DNA of 7,550 nt from positions 1 to 7,550 of the forward strand of contig JACMIS010000237.1 in the NCBI GenBank assembly GCA_014381035.1, given 5' to 3'. This DNA comes from Armatimonadota bacterium (GTDB taxonomy: Bacteria > Armatimonadota > Armatimonadia > Armatimonadales > Armatimonadaceae). Numbering within the stretch: position 1 is the first letter of the stretch; each line of letters opens with the position of its first letter. This document shows positions 3,715 through 7,506 of this stretch, piece after piece. Under the pieces are notes generated by a model. That model saw only the letters and a program-made list of their open reading frames with translations, did not search any database and was not told the origin of the DNA. Both the position numbers and the translations under genes were made by a program.

Positions 3715-4800
3715 GTGAATAACGTCGAATCAACAAGTCAACAGGGGTGCGCGAACCGCGAAGCGGCGAAGTCCGCCGGGTTACGTTATGTCACCGACGG
3801 CAAGCCGGGCATCCGCCGCGTGGGGGAAACAAAGCAGGGTTTTCACTATATCGCCCCCGATGGCACGGCGATAAGCGACGAAGCGACGTTGGAACGGATC
3901 CGAAAAATCGGGATTCCTCCGGCATATACGGATGTGTGGATATGCCCCCACGCAACCGGACACCTGCAAGCGTCGGGACGCGACGCAAAGAACCGCAAGC
4001 AATACCGTTACCACGCGAAATGGCGCGAAGCCCGCGACGAAAACAAGTACGACCGCATGATGGCGTTCGGGGATGCCCTCCCCGCTCTCCGCGCCCGCGT
4101 CGCCGAGGATCTGGCACGACGCGGTCTGCCGCGTGAAAAAGTGCTTGCGACGGTGATACGCCTCTTGGAGACGACCCGGATTCGCGTCGGCAACGAGGAG
4201 TATGCGGAAGCCAACCAGCATTACGGGTTGACGACGCTACGCAACCGGCATGTGACCGTGGAAGGCGGGACCCTGCGCTTCTCATTCGTCGGTAAATCGG
4301 GCGTTCGGCACCGTCTGGAATTGAAAAGCCGCAAACTGGCAAAAATCGTGCAGAATGTGCGCGACCTGCCGGGTCAGGAACTGTTCCAATACGTGGACGC
4401 GGAAACCGGCGACATCAAACCGGTACACTCGGAAGACGTGAACGAATACCTGCGCGAAATCACCGGCGAATCGTTCTCCGCGAAAGATTTTCGGACGTGG
4501 TCGGGGACGGTACTGTGCGCGATGGAACTTGCCGCATTCGAGACCGCCCCGACGGCAACCGTGGCGAAAGAAAATGTCGTGCAGGCGATCCGCACGGTCG
4601 CCGCGCACCTCGGCAACACGCCATCCGTGTGCCGCAAGTGCTACGTCCACCCGGCGATCCTGGACACTTACACTGCGACGGGTTTTCCCGATTCGCTTCG
4701 GACGGTCCCTGCGGCGGACGCAGACGCGCTACCGAACGCCCTGTTGCCCGAAGAGCGGGCGGTGCTGCAATTTTTACGCAGTCAGGCAAAGTCGGGATAA
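3715..4800 (+). CDS. DNA topoisomerase IB (poxvirus/bacterial type)
   Basis: This 361-residue enzyme relaxes supercoils by transient single-strand cleavage through a 3'-phosphotyrosine. The N-terminal domain (about 20-105) carries LRYVTDGKPGIRRV, IPPAYTDVWICPHATGHLQASGRDAKNRKQYRYH and the WREARDENKYDRM segment typical of bacterial members. The catalytic domain holds R157 (TRIRVGNEEYA), K194 (FVGKSG), R260 (KDFRTWSGT), N301 (LGNTP, where vaccinia virus has His) and the nucleophile Y310 (CRKCYVHP). All expected residues are present, so it should be active. GTG at 3715 is the only ATG, GTG or TTG between the upstream in-frame stop and the conserved N-terminus. No good Shine-Dalgarno precedes it. 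Bacterial TopIB genes are patchily distributed, which is usually explained by horizontal transfer. It is followed 7 nt later by an Imm35-like gene and may share its transcript. Confidence 0.95.
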   Translation: MNNVESTSQQGCANREAAKSAGLRYVTDGKPGIRRVGETKQGFHYIAPDGTAISDEATLERIRKIGIPPAYTDVWICPHATGHLQASGRDAKNRKQYRYHAKWREARDENKYDRMMAFGDALPALRARVAEDLARRGLPREKVLATVIRLLETTRIRVGNEEYAEANQHYGLTTLRNRHVTVEGGTLRFSFVGKSGVRHRLELKSRKLAKIVQNVRDLPGQELFQYVDAETGDIKPVHSEDVNEYLREITGESFSAKDFRTWSGTVLCAMELAAFETAPTATVAKENVVQAIRTVAAHLGNTPSVCRKCYVHPAILDTYTATGFPDSLRTVPAADADALPNALLPEERAVLQFLRSQAKSG

Positions 4801-4807
4801 TCCAACC

Positions 4808-5140
4808 ATGAATCAAATGTTTTACGCCGACTGCGAGCCGATTTTTACCCTTACCCTCCCCGTGACAGAGGAGGCGGCTTACGAGGCGGTCTCCGAGTAT
4901 CTGGCATCTATTACCTATGGTATGGAGATGGTCATCCACAACAAGCCGTCTGGGAATCTGTGGATGTACTACTACCAGTCCGCCGGATATATAAGAACCC
5001 AGGATATTTCACAGGCACTCGCGGGAAACGCGCCGATCCTGATAGACACCATCACGGGCGAAGCGTTCGTCACCGGAACCGCAGAGCCAATCGAGGAATA
5101 CATCGCCGCATACAGACGTCGTCAGGAACCGGAACAATAG
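4808..5140 (+). CDS. Imm35/YrhB-like small protein (orphan immunity-type)
   Basis: This 110-residue cytoplasmic protein has no signal peptide or membrane segment. A helical segment at about 19-35 (VTEEAAYEAVSEYLASI) leads into LWMYYYQSAGYIRTQDISQALAGNAPILIDTITGEAFVTGTAEPIEEYI (residues 51-99, quoted in parts: WMYYYQSAGYI, ALAGNAPILID, TGEAFVTGTAEPIEEY). That pattern is what I recall for the Imm35 (YrhB-like) family of predicted immunity proteins of polymorphic toxin systems. I know of no strong evidence for its biochemical role. ATG is at 4808, 7 nt after the topoisomerase stop; the Shine-Dalgarno is poor (GGGA overlapping that stop), suggesting coupling. No toxin gene is adjacent, so it is an orphan; domestication or a function unrelated to toxins is possible. 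The reading frame stays open upstream inside the topoisomerase gene, but that part is a shadow. Confidence 0.7.
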   Translation: MNQMFYADCEPIFTLTLPVTEEAAYEAVSEYLASITYGMEMVIHNKPSGNLWMYYYQSAGYIRTQDISQALAGNAPILIDTITGEAFVTGTAEPIEEYIAAYRRRQEPEQ

Positions 5141-5204
5141 TTACACTCTCGCGTTCTGACAAATCTAAAAAAATAAATTAAAACTTTTTCGCGATGTGAC
5201 ACGA

Positions 5205-5221
5205 TTGGCACGCATCCTGCA
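5205..5221 (+). promoter_or_regulatory. Sigma-54 (RpoN) -24/-12 promoter
   Basis: TTGGCACGCATCCTGCA has GG at 5207-5208 and GC at 5219-5220 separated by exactly 10 nt. It matches the consensus TGGCACG-N4-TTGC(A/T) at all but one position (C for the first T of the -12 box). The start site would be close to 5232. An AT-rich stretch (about 5160-5191) just upstream could aid bending, for example by IHF or HU. No activator site is identifiable. Confidence 0.75.
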
Positions 5222-5231
5222 AACAGTAATA

Positions 5232-5297
5232 ATCGCACGAGAAACACCATGACTTGCCCGACTTGTGAACCTTCTGGTTCACGTCGGGCTTTTTTTT
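5232..5297 (+). ncRNA. Candidate sigma-54-dependent small RNA, about 66 nt
   Basis: The interval runs from the start site expected for the sigma-54 promoter to the end of the T-run of an intrinsic terminator. It would give about 24 nt of A/C-rich, probably unpaired 5' RNA followed by the terminator hairpin, a layout typical of trans-acting small RNAs. The only ATG (5249) opens a frame that runs through the terminator and into the antisense of the sirtuin gene, so a peptide product is unlikely. It lies between convergent genes (Imm35-like on plus, sirtuin on minus). It is not similar to any RNA family I recognise. The alternative is that the hairpin simply terminates the topoisomerase-Imm35 transcript. 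Confidence 0.5.
5256..5297 (+). terminator. Strong intrinsic terminator (plus strand)
   Basis: Arms gcccgac + gtgaacc (5256-5262 and 5265-5271, with a 2-nt TT bulge) pair with ggttcac + gtcgggc (5276-5289) around a TTCT loop. That is 14 bp in total, followed by eight T (5290-5297). It would end both the candidate small RNA and any read-through from the Imm35-like gene. On the minus strand no T-run follows, so it should not terminate the sirtuin operon efficiently. Confidence 0.9.
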
Positions 5298-5309
5298 GCG
5301 ACACCGTGT

Positions 5310-6137
5310 TCACACCAACGCGGCAATCCGGGTCAGGGCGTCGAGCGACCCGAACGGCAATCCGACGCACACGCCGCGCGCGGGCAAAGCGCAGTCACGC
5401 GGGTTGATACGAATCAGCGTCGCCGCGGTCGCGTCCGCCACACGCTCCGCGAGAAGCCGGACTGTCGGTATCGCCCGTCCCGCGCCGATCTCGACCACGG
5501 CGATCTTCCCGTGGTTACCGAGTACTTGTGTCAGCCACGATTCCAATTCCCGTTCCTGTGCTTCCGAGCGGGTGTGCTGCCACCGCCAGTCGTTGAACAT
5601 CAGCACATTCGGACGGGCGATTTGCAGGCAGTTCGGGCAATGGGGAAGTTTACCGGAAGCGCGAAGCGTCGCCGTGTCTACAACAACCGCGTCGTCATCC
5701 GCGCTCCAGATTTCCCACGAACAGCCATACAAACATTGCAAATGATGGATCGAGCCGTGGCACTCCGCGATACGACCGGCATCGAAGTCTGCCTTCTGAA
5801 ACTGCCCGTCCACATTGGAGGTAAACACGAAACTGCCAAACGGTTTGGCGCCCGCCCATTGTTTGAGTAGCGAAAAGCCCGGATGCGGAACCGTGGCGCG
5901 ATATAGGTTCAGCCGGTGCCCGTAAAACCCCCACGCCAGCGCGGGATTCTCATAAAACATCTCCGGACTCGCGATCTGTGTGAACGGTATGCCCGCGTCA
6001 CGCAGGGGCGGGTAAGCTTCCCAGAATCCGTCGTCGCCGCGAAAGTCGGGCAAGCCGGAATCTACGCCGATACCCGCGCCCGCACAGATCAGGAGAGCGT
6101 CGGCGTCTCGGATGGCATCAGCGGCTTGTTGGAGCAT
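5310..6137 (-). CDS. Sir2-family (sirtuin) NAD-dependent protein, atypical subgroup
   Basis: This 275-residue protein belongs to the sirtuin superfamily, which uses NAD+ to remove acyl groups or transfer or hydrolyse ADP-ribose. The Rossmann and NAD motifs are GAGIGVDSGLPDFRG (20-34) and TSNVDGQF (106-113), where most sirtuins have TQNID. The catalytic histidine is H127 (ECHGS). Four zinc-type cysteines, C135, C139, C167 and C170, are present. RPNVLMFNDWRW (175-186) replaces the usual RPxVVxFGE, and EIGAGRAIPT (216-225) replaces GTS, so it is a divergent subgroup and the exact reaction is uncertain. It starts 18 nt after the RNA ligase stop, with GAGAGGT overlapping that stop as a weakly placed Shine-Dalgarno, so the two form an operon. 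It could be a regulatory deacylase, an ADP-ribosyl-modifying enzyme or an NADase; a standalone 275-residue sirtuin fits the first best. Confidence 0.9.
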   Translation of the reverse strand: MLQQAADAIRDADALLICAGAGIGVDSGLPDFRGDDGFWEAYPPLRDAGIPFTQIASPEMFYENPALAWGFYGHRLNLYRATVPHPGFSLLKQWAGAKPFGSFVFTSNVDGQFQKADFDAGRIAECHGSIHHLQCLYGCSWEIWSADDDAVVVDTATLRASGKLPHCPNCLQIARPNVLMFNDWRWQHTRSEAQERELESWLTQVLGNHGKIAVVEIGAGRAIPTVRLLAERVADATAATLIRINPRDCALPARGVCVGLPFGSLDALTRIAALV

Positions 6138-6155: not shown

Positions 6156-7193
6156 TCAGTCCCGCTCCGCCAGCAGGTACCGGTTGCTGATCGCCTTGAA
6201 CGATAACCGCCCGCCGAGCGTGGAACTGAACGTTTCCGTCCGGGGGCGAATCACGATCCCCTCGCGCTCGTTTTTCGTGCCGGGGTACTTGCCCTCCGCC
6301 AGAAGGAGCAGTTCCTCCTGCGTGTGTGCGAACGATTCGCCGGTCTCGATAGTCTCCACTGCCGGGATGTTATTCGCCCGTAAAAACGCACGTGCGTCGT
6401 CGTGGTTCAGATAGTTTCCCGCCGCAAAGTCGTATACGTTGAATACGAAAAGTGCGATCTCGGACAAGCCGAGCGGGTTCTTTTGCACACCGGGACCGAC
6501 GATCTCGCCCTGAATGGCAATGTCCAGGTTCTTTCGCAGTGCCGCTTCGATGTCGTATTTTCGCGCCATGTTCCAGTACGGGTTGTTTCCGTCTCGTAAC
6601 GACTGGTTGCGGCTGGCGACATGGAACTCGCCGGTGCGCGGGTCGATCACGAACGTCGCCGATGTACCGTCGTACTTGAGTGTCGCCACATACGACTTGC
6701 CACGCAGTTCGTCCAAAACCGGCGGCACACTTTGCACGCGCATTTCGTCGGTTTTCGGCACCATCGGGGGGAACGGTCCGCGCCAATCGCCCATGTTGCT
6801 TGGTGCCGGTGGCTCGTACTTGCCGACGCCGAGCGTTTCGGTCAGGTCGTCGCCTTCCACCGCCGCGTCGCCGATCTCGGGGAACGCCGGTAGTGGCATA
6901 AACAAACCCTGTGACAACGCGCCGCGCAACCGCATCGTTCGGATACGGAACTTGTCCGGTCGCGAGACGGTCTCACCCTCCACCGTGGCTTTCGGCGTCC
7001 ACAGAAAGCGGAACCGCTCGTCGTCGGGCGGAATCGCATCGATCTCGAAAAAGACGCCGAGGCTTCCCGGCACGAACTCGCCTTTTTTCGTGACGCATTG
7101 CCAGCCATTGATTCGCACCAACTCAATCGCGTCGGCGTTCAAGATAGGTTCGATGCCGATTACCCGTTGCACACTAGCTAATTTTCTTTGCAT
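6156..7193 (-). CDS. RNA ligase, DRB0094 (Deinococcus Rnl) type
   Basis: This 345-residue ATP-dependent ligase matches the Deinococcus radiodurans DraRnl family in length and layout. An N-terminal OB-fold-like domain covers about 1-130 (ASVQRVIGIEPILNADAIELVRING at its start), and the nucleotidyltransferase domain follows. Motif I is KYDGTS with adenylated lysine K173. SRNQSL (194-199), IQGE with E230, LFVFNVYDF (248-256), EGIVIRP (311-317, motif IV) and SFKAIS with K333 (motif V) are all intact. The characterised family member seals nicks in duplexes where the 3'-OH strand end is RNA. A strong Shine-Dalgarno, AGGAG, lies 7 nt upstream (complement of 7201-7205) and settles the start. The sirtuin follows closely downstream and two tRNA-Arg genes lie upstream in the same direction, which suggests but does not prove an RNA-repair setting. 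Confidence 0.95.
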   Translation of the reverse strand: MQRKLASVQRVIGIEPILNADAIELVRINGWQCVTKKGEFVPGSLGVFFEIDAIPPDDERFRFLWTPKATVEGETVSRPDKFRIRTMRLRGALSQGLFMPLPAFPEIGDAAVEGDDLTETLGVGKYEPPAPSNMGDWRGPFPPMVPKTDEMRVQSVPPVLDELRGKSYVATLKYDGTSATFVIDPRTGEFHVASRNQSLRDGNNPYWNMARKYDIEAALRKNLDIAIQGEIVGPGVQKNPLGLSEIALFVFNVYDFAAGNYLNHDDARAFLRANNIPAVETIETGESFAHTQEELLLLAEGKYPGTKNEREGIVIRPRTETFSSTLGGRLSFKAISNRYLLAERD

Positions 7194-7325: not shown

Positions 7326-7397
7326 TGGTCCCGGCAGGAATCGAACCCGCACGGTGACGTTAGAAGCGTCATGCCCTATCCGTTAGACGACGGGAAC
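7326..7397 (-). tRNA. tRNA-Arg (anticodon TCT)
   Basis: This 72-nt cloverleaf reads on the minus strand. D arm GTCT-AACGGATA-GGGC, anticodon stem TGACG/CGTCA with loop CTTCTAA (anticodon TCT, reading AGA), a 4-nt variable loop, T stem GCGGG/CCTGC and T loop TTCGATT. The acceptor arms GTTCCCG and CGGGACC pair except for a T-C mismatch at 2-71; shifting the 5' end to 7398 would give full pairing with one bulged T instead. The discriminator base is A and CCA is not encoded. It lies 36 nt downstream of the second tRNA-Arg. Confidence 0.92.
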
Positions 7398-7433
7398 CAG
7401 CGATGTGATCTTCTTTTCTACCCGACAACCGAG

Positions 7434-7506
7434 TGTTCCCGGCAGGAATCGAACCTGCAATCTCGACGTTCGAAGCGTCGCGCCGTATCCGTTGGGCTAC
7501 GAGAAC
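7434..7506 (-). tRNA. tRNA-Arg (anticodon TCG)
   Basis: This 73-nt cloverleaf reads on the minus strand. Acceptor arms GTTCTCG/CGGGAAC (one G-T pair), D arm GCCC-AACGGATA-CGGC with the last pair open, anticodon stem CGACG/CGTCG with loop CTTCGAA (anticodon TCG, reading CGA), variable loop AGATT, T stem GCAGG/CCTGC and T loop TTCGATT. The discriminator is A and CCA is not encoded. The tandem arrangement with tRNA-Arg(TCT) suggests one precursor transcript. Confidence 0.95.

Follow-up and report, generated by a model that had tools for sequence, protein, structure and literature searches.

The stretch of DNA analysed here, 7,550 nucleotides (nt) from an Armatimonadota bacterium (positions 1-7,550 of contig JACMIS010000237.1, assembly GCA_014381035.1; hereafter the window), holds a compact element at positions 5205-5297, in the intergenic gap between an Imm35 gene that ends at 5140 and a convergent Sir2-family gene that ends at 5310. 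The element consists of a promoter-like sequence, a short linear segment and a hairpin followed by a T-run (Table 1). An initial annotation had read it as a small RNA (sRNA) gene transcribed by sigma-54 RNA polymerase, and the sequence comparisons described below support that reading. We consider it likely that the element is a gene for a base-pairing sRNA that depends on sigma-54 and is probably assisted by Hfq.

Table 1. Features of the predicted sRNA locus and its neighbours, in window coordinates
Feature	Position	Strand	Basis or remark
Sigma-54 type -24/-12 promoter TGGCACGCATCCTGCA	5206..5221	+	GG 5207-5208, GC 5219-5220, 10 bases apart
Overlapping sigma-70-like site TTGGCA-N17-AATAAT, possible second promoter	5205..5233	+	Promoter scan
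Predicted small RNA, ~66 nt	5232..5297	+	Start inferred 12 nt past the -12 GC; 11-copy family
5' segment, predicted mostly unpaired	5232..5255	+	24 nt; core GCACGAGAA at 5235-5243
Terminator hairpin	5256..5289	+	14 pairs as two 7-bp blocks, 2-nt bulge
T8 run, termination; possible Hfq-binding tail	5290..5297	+	Sequence
Topoisomerase IB gene, conserved upstream neighbour of the window copy	3715..4800	+	Pfam PF01028, PF21338; synteny
Imm35 gene, immediate upstream neighbour	4808..5140	+	PF15567; none found beside the G002 copy
Sir2-family gene, convergent downstream neighbour	5310..6137	-	PF02146; synteny in L001, L002

The near-perfect GG-N10-GC promoter described in the initial annotation was borne out. 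The sequence TGGCACGCATCCTGCA matches 11 of the 12 fixed positions of the consensus TGGCACGN4TTGCW, and none other among the window's 15,068 16-mers (both strands) scores as high. Likewise, the intrinsic terminator was found as annotated, with 14 base pairs and a T8 run. A simple terminator scan of the window (11 found, 8.5 expected) does not list this hairpin, in our opinion because of its bulge. When the predicted RNA is folded so that it ends at the T-run, the folding energy is -25.0 kcal/mol and nt 3-17 have a mean unpaired probability of 0.89, consistent with the annotated unpaired 5' seed of about 24 nt. Folding of 5232-5300, which is three bases longer, gives -29.4 kcal/mol (z -6.95; none of 200 shuffles reaches so low an energy), and here positions from about 5234 to 5244 pair with the U-run and with the bases that follow it, lowering the accessibility of the 5' end. 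Thus, the seed is open in an RNA ending at the T-run and partly paired in the longer one, indicating that its unpaired state depends on the end point of the RNA. No family in Rfam 15 matches the element when positions 4800-5700 are searched at E-values up to 5, in line with the initial annotation, which recognised no described family; the sole match in that region, mir-2954 (E 4.9), lies outside the element, on the opposite strand at 4918-4947.

The closest relatives of the window's topoisomerase IB are found in two Armatimonadota metagenome-assembled genomes (MAGs), at L001 (82% identity; genome G001) and L002 (65%; genome G002). The element is present at the equivalent place in both, and a second copy lies elsewhere in each genome; because it is conserved in place and present again elsewhere, we regard it as standing above chance. 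A transcript-only model (R1), run over 291 genomes of the phylum, contributed copies in G012, G013 and G019, and a second transcript-only model (R2), run over 40 of the 291 genomes, contributed copies in G020 and G014. R2 produced 29 matches with E-values of at most 1, spread over 20 of the 40 genomes; 9 of these matches were accepted and 20 were dropped after reading, mostly as bare terminators; an R1 match in G047, a terminator with neither core nor promoter, was also dropped. Strict filters were applied to the 291 genomes and permissive ones to the 40 only, so the seven RNA-bearing genomes are a lower bound. Two of the accepted copies, L113 and L127, have weak E-values (0.012 and 0.071, respectively) and were accepted partly on sight of their promoters; both later proved to follow a pepF gene, which is independent support for each. 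A variant second copy in G014 (L188 315-400, also L377, on G014:C56), with TGGCACGGAAATTGCA, then ACACGAGAAAC, a GC-rich hairpin and a weak T-run, is weaker than the first and was found via a promoter search, so that it provides no independent test of the promoter.

The accepted family comprises 11 copies, namely the window copy and ten in the seven relatives. Ten of the 11 carry the core GCACGAGAA unchanged, and the five closest copies (the window copy and two each in G001 and G002) agree at 22 of their first 23 positions. The string TGCACGAGAAACACC occurs six times in the 291 genomes, always inside these RNAs. In the hairpin, 5 of the 14 pairs are changed on both sides among the five closest copies, a number that none of 500 shuffles reaches, and sliding the pairing register leaves at most 42% of cells paired, compared with 96% in the true register. 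Coming from five related sequences, this covariation is support for the predicted hairpin and not proof. None of seven loci searched in the relatives matches Rfam at the gathering score. In one folding run the G020 RNA was truncated at a T-run in its loop, and that G020 fold is invalid.

The promoter is conserved together with the RNA. GG-N10-GC lies 13-14 nt upstream of the core in 10 of the 11 accepted copies, the exception being G019, and sequence conservation begins at the start predicted from the -24/-12 boxes. Among five finds made with the transcript-only models (L101, L102, L104, L113 and L127), four carry GG-N10-GC, compared with 1.7% of random positions. The chance of at least four of five at this background is about 4e-7, a value that flatters the case, L113 and L127 having been accepted partly on account of their promoters; the three clear finds alone give two of three. 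A combined promoter-plus-core pattern matched 13 times in 11 of the 291 genomes, compared with 5 matches for the reversed pattern; 8 of the 13 are these RNAs, and the remaining 5 (in G051, G197, G224, G225 and G246) are chance-like. Ten matches to the promoter-plus-core pattern in viral contigs were read as chance as well, none showing by eye a hairpin with a T-run within the next 65 bases (one contig, L388, ends within that distance).

The copies occupy two main settings. A gene for a pepF-like M3 peptidase precedes one copy in all seven relatives, on the same strand and 58-138 nt upstream; the G002 pepF fragment matched M3 oligoendopeptidase models below their cut-offs. The gene beyond this copy differs, reading by eye as a fatty-acid hydroxylase in G002 and an M42-type peptidase in G012 and G013, and neither was matched beyond the pepF-linked copy in the other four relatives. 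The second setting, in which topoisomerase IB, usually Imm35, the RNA and Sir2 follow one another, was found in the window, G001 and G002. Since the pepF-linked copy is present in all seven relatives and the topoisomerase/Sir2 setting in these three alone, the pepF place is probably the original one, from which the window's place arose by duplication, and we expect the window's own genome to have a pepF-linked copy too. Around the second G014 copy, none of six query proteins (pepF, topoisomerase IB, Imm35, Sir2 and two others) was matched. The initial annotation had asked whether promoter, 5' seed and hairpin stay together while the flanking genes change, and between the two locations they largely do. 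It had also raised the case of a hairpin that persists as the terminator of the Imm35 gene without the boxes; at the G002 copy we found the reverse, boxes and RNA being kept with no Imm35 gene found beside them.

We also looked in the relatives for the proteins that such an RNA would call for. A gene for sigma-54 (rpoN; PF04963) was found in four of the seven RNA-bearing relatives (G002, G012, G013 and G020), and Hfq is encoded in all seven. Strong matches to the sigma-54 activator domain PF00158 (E about 1e-66 or lower) were found in six (G001, G002, G012, G013, G014 and G020), and G019 has weak AAA matches only, the best at 4.1e-9. Five of the activators are intact and have the architecture Response_reg - Sigma54_activat - AAA_lid_14; in none of these five did a scan at E up to 0.001 yield a helix-turn-helix (HTH) match. 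The G013 activator, which was read rather than scanned, consists of two strongly matching pieces, both at contig ends, with an overlap of 503 bases at 96% identity; we take these as one gene in strain variants, two genes being the alternative. A kinase-like open reading frame (ORF) reads directly upstream of the activator in six of six genomes, and both of the two scanned proved to be HisKA-HATPase_c proteins. Downstream of the activator, G012, G013 and G014 have a gene reading by eye as a polysaccharide chain-length-like protein, the G012 one without a Pfam match. No shared motif was seen upstream of the family's promoters, which an activator lacking a DNA-binding domain would explain. In G019, whose contigs reach 257 kb, the activator match, the rpoN match and the -24/-12 boxes are all missing together. 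This kind of activator, the pepF-linked second copy and the overlapping sigma-70-like site all go beyond the initial annotation.

What sequence comparison shows is that promoter spacing, seed and hairpin are conserved, that the RNA recurs at a second locus, and that promoter, activator match and rpoN match are missing together from one relative. For everything beyond this, from transcription and its dependence on sigma-54 through activation from solution to the binding of Hfq and of messenger RNAs (mRNAs), we infer the following course. RNA polymerase with sigma-54 would start near 5232 upon activation by what is apparently the lineage's single NtrC-type activator, a response regulator encoded beside a histidine kinase. 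Because this activator has no recognisable DNA-binding domain, it would probably work from solution without an enhancer. The hairpin and T8 run would end transcription, and the nearly invariant 5' segment around the core would then base-pair with mRNAs, the U-tail probably being bound by Hfq. More tentatively, one can envisage a minimal circuit in which one kinase and one activator devoid of a DNA-binding domain work the lineage's sigma-54 promoters from solution. The duplicated and conserved sRNA would be the core output of such a circuit, an enhancer-free route from signal to post-transcriptional control, and G019 would have lost the circuit, kept the RNA gene and rewired it to another promoter. 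We put this forward as a possibility of which we are far from confident.

Candidate targets were sought in five genomes with the pattern TGTTTCTCGTGC, a 12-base complement, allowing at most one mismatch, which gave 155 matches; three listed G012 matches were not fetched on their own. Among the matches listed there are 146 distinct complementary sites, including the opposite strands of the RNA genes themselves. Two sites span a start codon and pair strongly. The first (L330/L376, on G001:C687 around 1072) reaches -28.0 kcal/mol, with 8 + 10 bases paired in L330, and belongs to a gene whose product has no Pfam match and reads as membrane-anchored. The second (L223/L378, on G019:C18 around 5684) reaches about -25 kcal/mol and belongs to a gene for a protein with a ligand-gated-channel domain. 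These single-genome candidates are leads only, since it was a search for the complement that turned them up and the two genes concerned are different ones. The ranking by pairing energy is biased, many loci having been fetched for carrying the complement, and it includes duplicates. In the stretches fetched, the starts of pepF, the kinase and the activator showed no outstanding pairing at a threshold of -12 kcal/mol or lower. The reversed TGTTTCTCGTGC control is far commoner in G012 and G013 (190 and 106) than in G001, G002 and G019 (16, 18 and 11), which points to repeated sequence.

Several observations weigh against the interpretation of the element as a gene for a sigma-54-dependent, base-pairing sRNA. 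No rpoN gene was found in G001, the closest relative, or in G014, both of which have the promoter and the activator; a genome lacking rpoN was among the refuting cases named in the initial annotation, and this result bears on it, but we tentatively read it as due to incomplete and fragmented MAGs. The joint absence of promoter, activator and rpoN comes from a single lineage, G019. A possible degenerate third G014 copy (L114, G014:C544:3662-3724, minus strand), with GTAGAAACACC, a GC-rich hairpin and T5, has no visible GG-N10-GC and was left out; including it would make the promoter count 10 of 12. Further pair types in the hairpin are no better than in shuffles (283 of 500). Among the matches listed, 11 of 146 complementary sites lie at translation starts, which is no clear enrichment, since 4.8% of random positions do so and shuffled patterns give 4 of 92. 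Sigma-54-like sites genome-wide are not clearly above the reversed-pattern control in most genomes (sites/control: G001 42/35, G002 33/48, G012 36/22, G013 44/13, G014 20/29, G019 8/18, G020 15/21), and the argument for the promoter therefore rests on its fixed position before the RNA. One 16-mer, CGGCACGGGCTTTGCA, recurs often in G012 and G013, perhaps in repeated coding sequence, and inflates the counts there. Three of the sigma-54-like sites (L198, L209 and L092) precede genes that read by eye like PilN, a polysaccharide-export protein and DnaK, respectively. Lastly, a sigma-70-like pair matching 10 of 12 positions, TTGGCA at 5205-5210 and AATAAT at 5228-5233 with a 17-nt spacer, overlaps the window's sigma-54 site.

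This last observation raises the strongest rival, namely that the RNA is transcribed from a sigma-70-type promoter. The letters GATAAT, TATAAT and TATGAT, which resemble a -10 element, occur in G001a, G001b and G002b, respectively, and G019, which keeps the RNA sequence without the -24/-12 boxes, would need another promoter in any case. However, no -10-like element precedes the core by eye in G002a, G013, G012 and G014a, yet GG-N10-GC is present in these copies, and a sigma-70 start about 7 nt past AATAAT would land inside the window's conserved core. A promoter scan of the window found 4 sites compared with 2.9 expected; for this comparison we relied on that separate scan and on reading, since one sigma-70 scoring run used a region ending before the core and so missed AATAAT and TATAAT. 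We regard a sigma-70-type promoter as somewhat unlikely to be the one that serves the RNA. Less likely again is that the conserved 5' segment binds a protein instead of pairing with mRNAs. A short motif so strongly constrained across 11 copies would suit such a role, as would the failure of complementary sites to be clearly enriched at translation starts. On the other side, a linear 5' end leading into a terminator is a usual layout for base-pairing sRNAs, and the two strongly complementary start-codon sites described above also speak against protein binding, although they are themselves products of a search for that complement.

Nor does it seem at all probable that the hairpin does nothing more than terminate the upstream gene, with the 5' part being an element of the 3' untranslated region (3'UTR), or a processed 3'UTR-derived RNA, of pepF or of topoisomerase IB/Imm35. 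One or other of these genes does lie shortly upstream on the same strand in 10 of the 11 copies, and the hairpin could also terminate upstream transcription. However, one genome has the same 5' segment at two unlinked loci, behind unrelated genes, the onset of conservation coincides with the start predicted from the -24/-12 boxes, and the RNA is kept at the G002 copy that has no Imm35 found beside it. A short coding gene or leader peptide from the ATG at 5249 was rejected as extremely improbable. Five copies share an ATG in this column, and the three topoisomerase/Sir2-locus copies show no stop within the 20 codons read. In the other six copies, however, the column is occupied by TTG, ATC or different codons, and stops close the frame after 8, 17 and 10 codons in G002b, G001b and G012, respectively. 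Moreover, the window's ORF (5249-5407) crosses the terminator and has no Pfam match, and the peptide is not kept outside the closest copies.

As to the surroundings of the element, Imm35 is an immunity-type gene, for which no toxin partner was noticed among the neighbours annotated in the window. Two tRNA-Arg genes adjoin a gene for an RNA ligase (PF09414 with a PHA02142 OB-fold; window 6156-7193 and 7326-7506). A plasmid origin was considered for the window and gave no match.

The best reading of the predicted RNA by analogy is that it would work like Qrr or GlmY while being a member of neither family. The Qrr RNAs of Vibrio, which belong to the LuxO/sigma-54 system, are likewise short, sigma-54-dependent sRNAs present in several copies per genome and activated by an NtrC-type response regulator. 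In contrast to Qrr, for which Rfam gave no match to the element at E up to 5, the RNA here would have a 24-nt linear 5' segment and one hairpin, whereas Qrr RNAs fold into several hairpins; moreover, the element belongs to another phylum, and no DNA-binding domain is recognisable in its likely activator. The GlmY/GlmZ RNAs of enterobacteria differ in that their family models do not match the element and in being longer and more structured. Sigma-54 activators without a DNA-binding domain are described in Helicobacter and Campylobacter (FlgR) and in Chlamydia (CtcC) (PMC3162934, PMC7482065), and FlgR is there called the only such activator of Campylobacter (PMC3162934). The Armatimonadota activator resembles these class Ic activators in having Sigma54_activat without an HTH in all five intact proteins scanned, and differs in that FlgR and CtcC are found in other phyla and have other known roles. 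FlgR and CtcC are not known to have an sRNA output. A search of the literature on small RNAs, sigma-54 and riboswitches in Armatimonadetes/Armatimonadota, with most subscription journals outside its coverage, showed no description of this RNA among the papers listed. What sets the RNA apart is that its family is unmatched and that its likely activator lacks a DNA-binding domain.

If the link to the activator fails, the RNA would be a further member of a kind already known. The find offers an sRNA family that is compact and open to test, for which the sigma factor and an apparently single activator can be predicted and in which one natural case of loss is seen. If the link is true, the family would provide an example of a sigma-54 activator without a DNA-binding domain that controls an sRNA.
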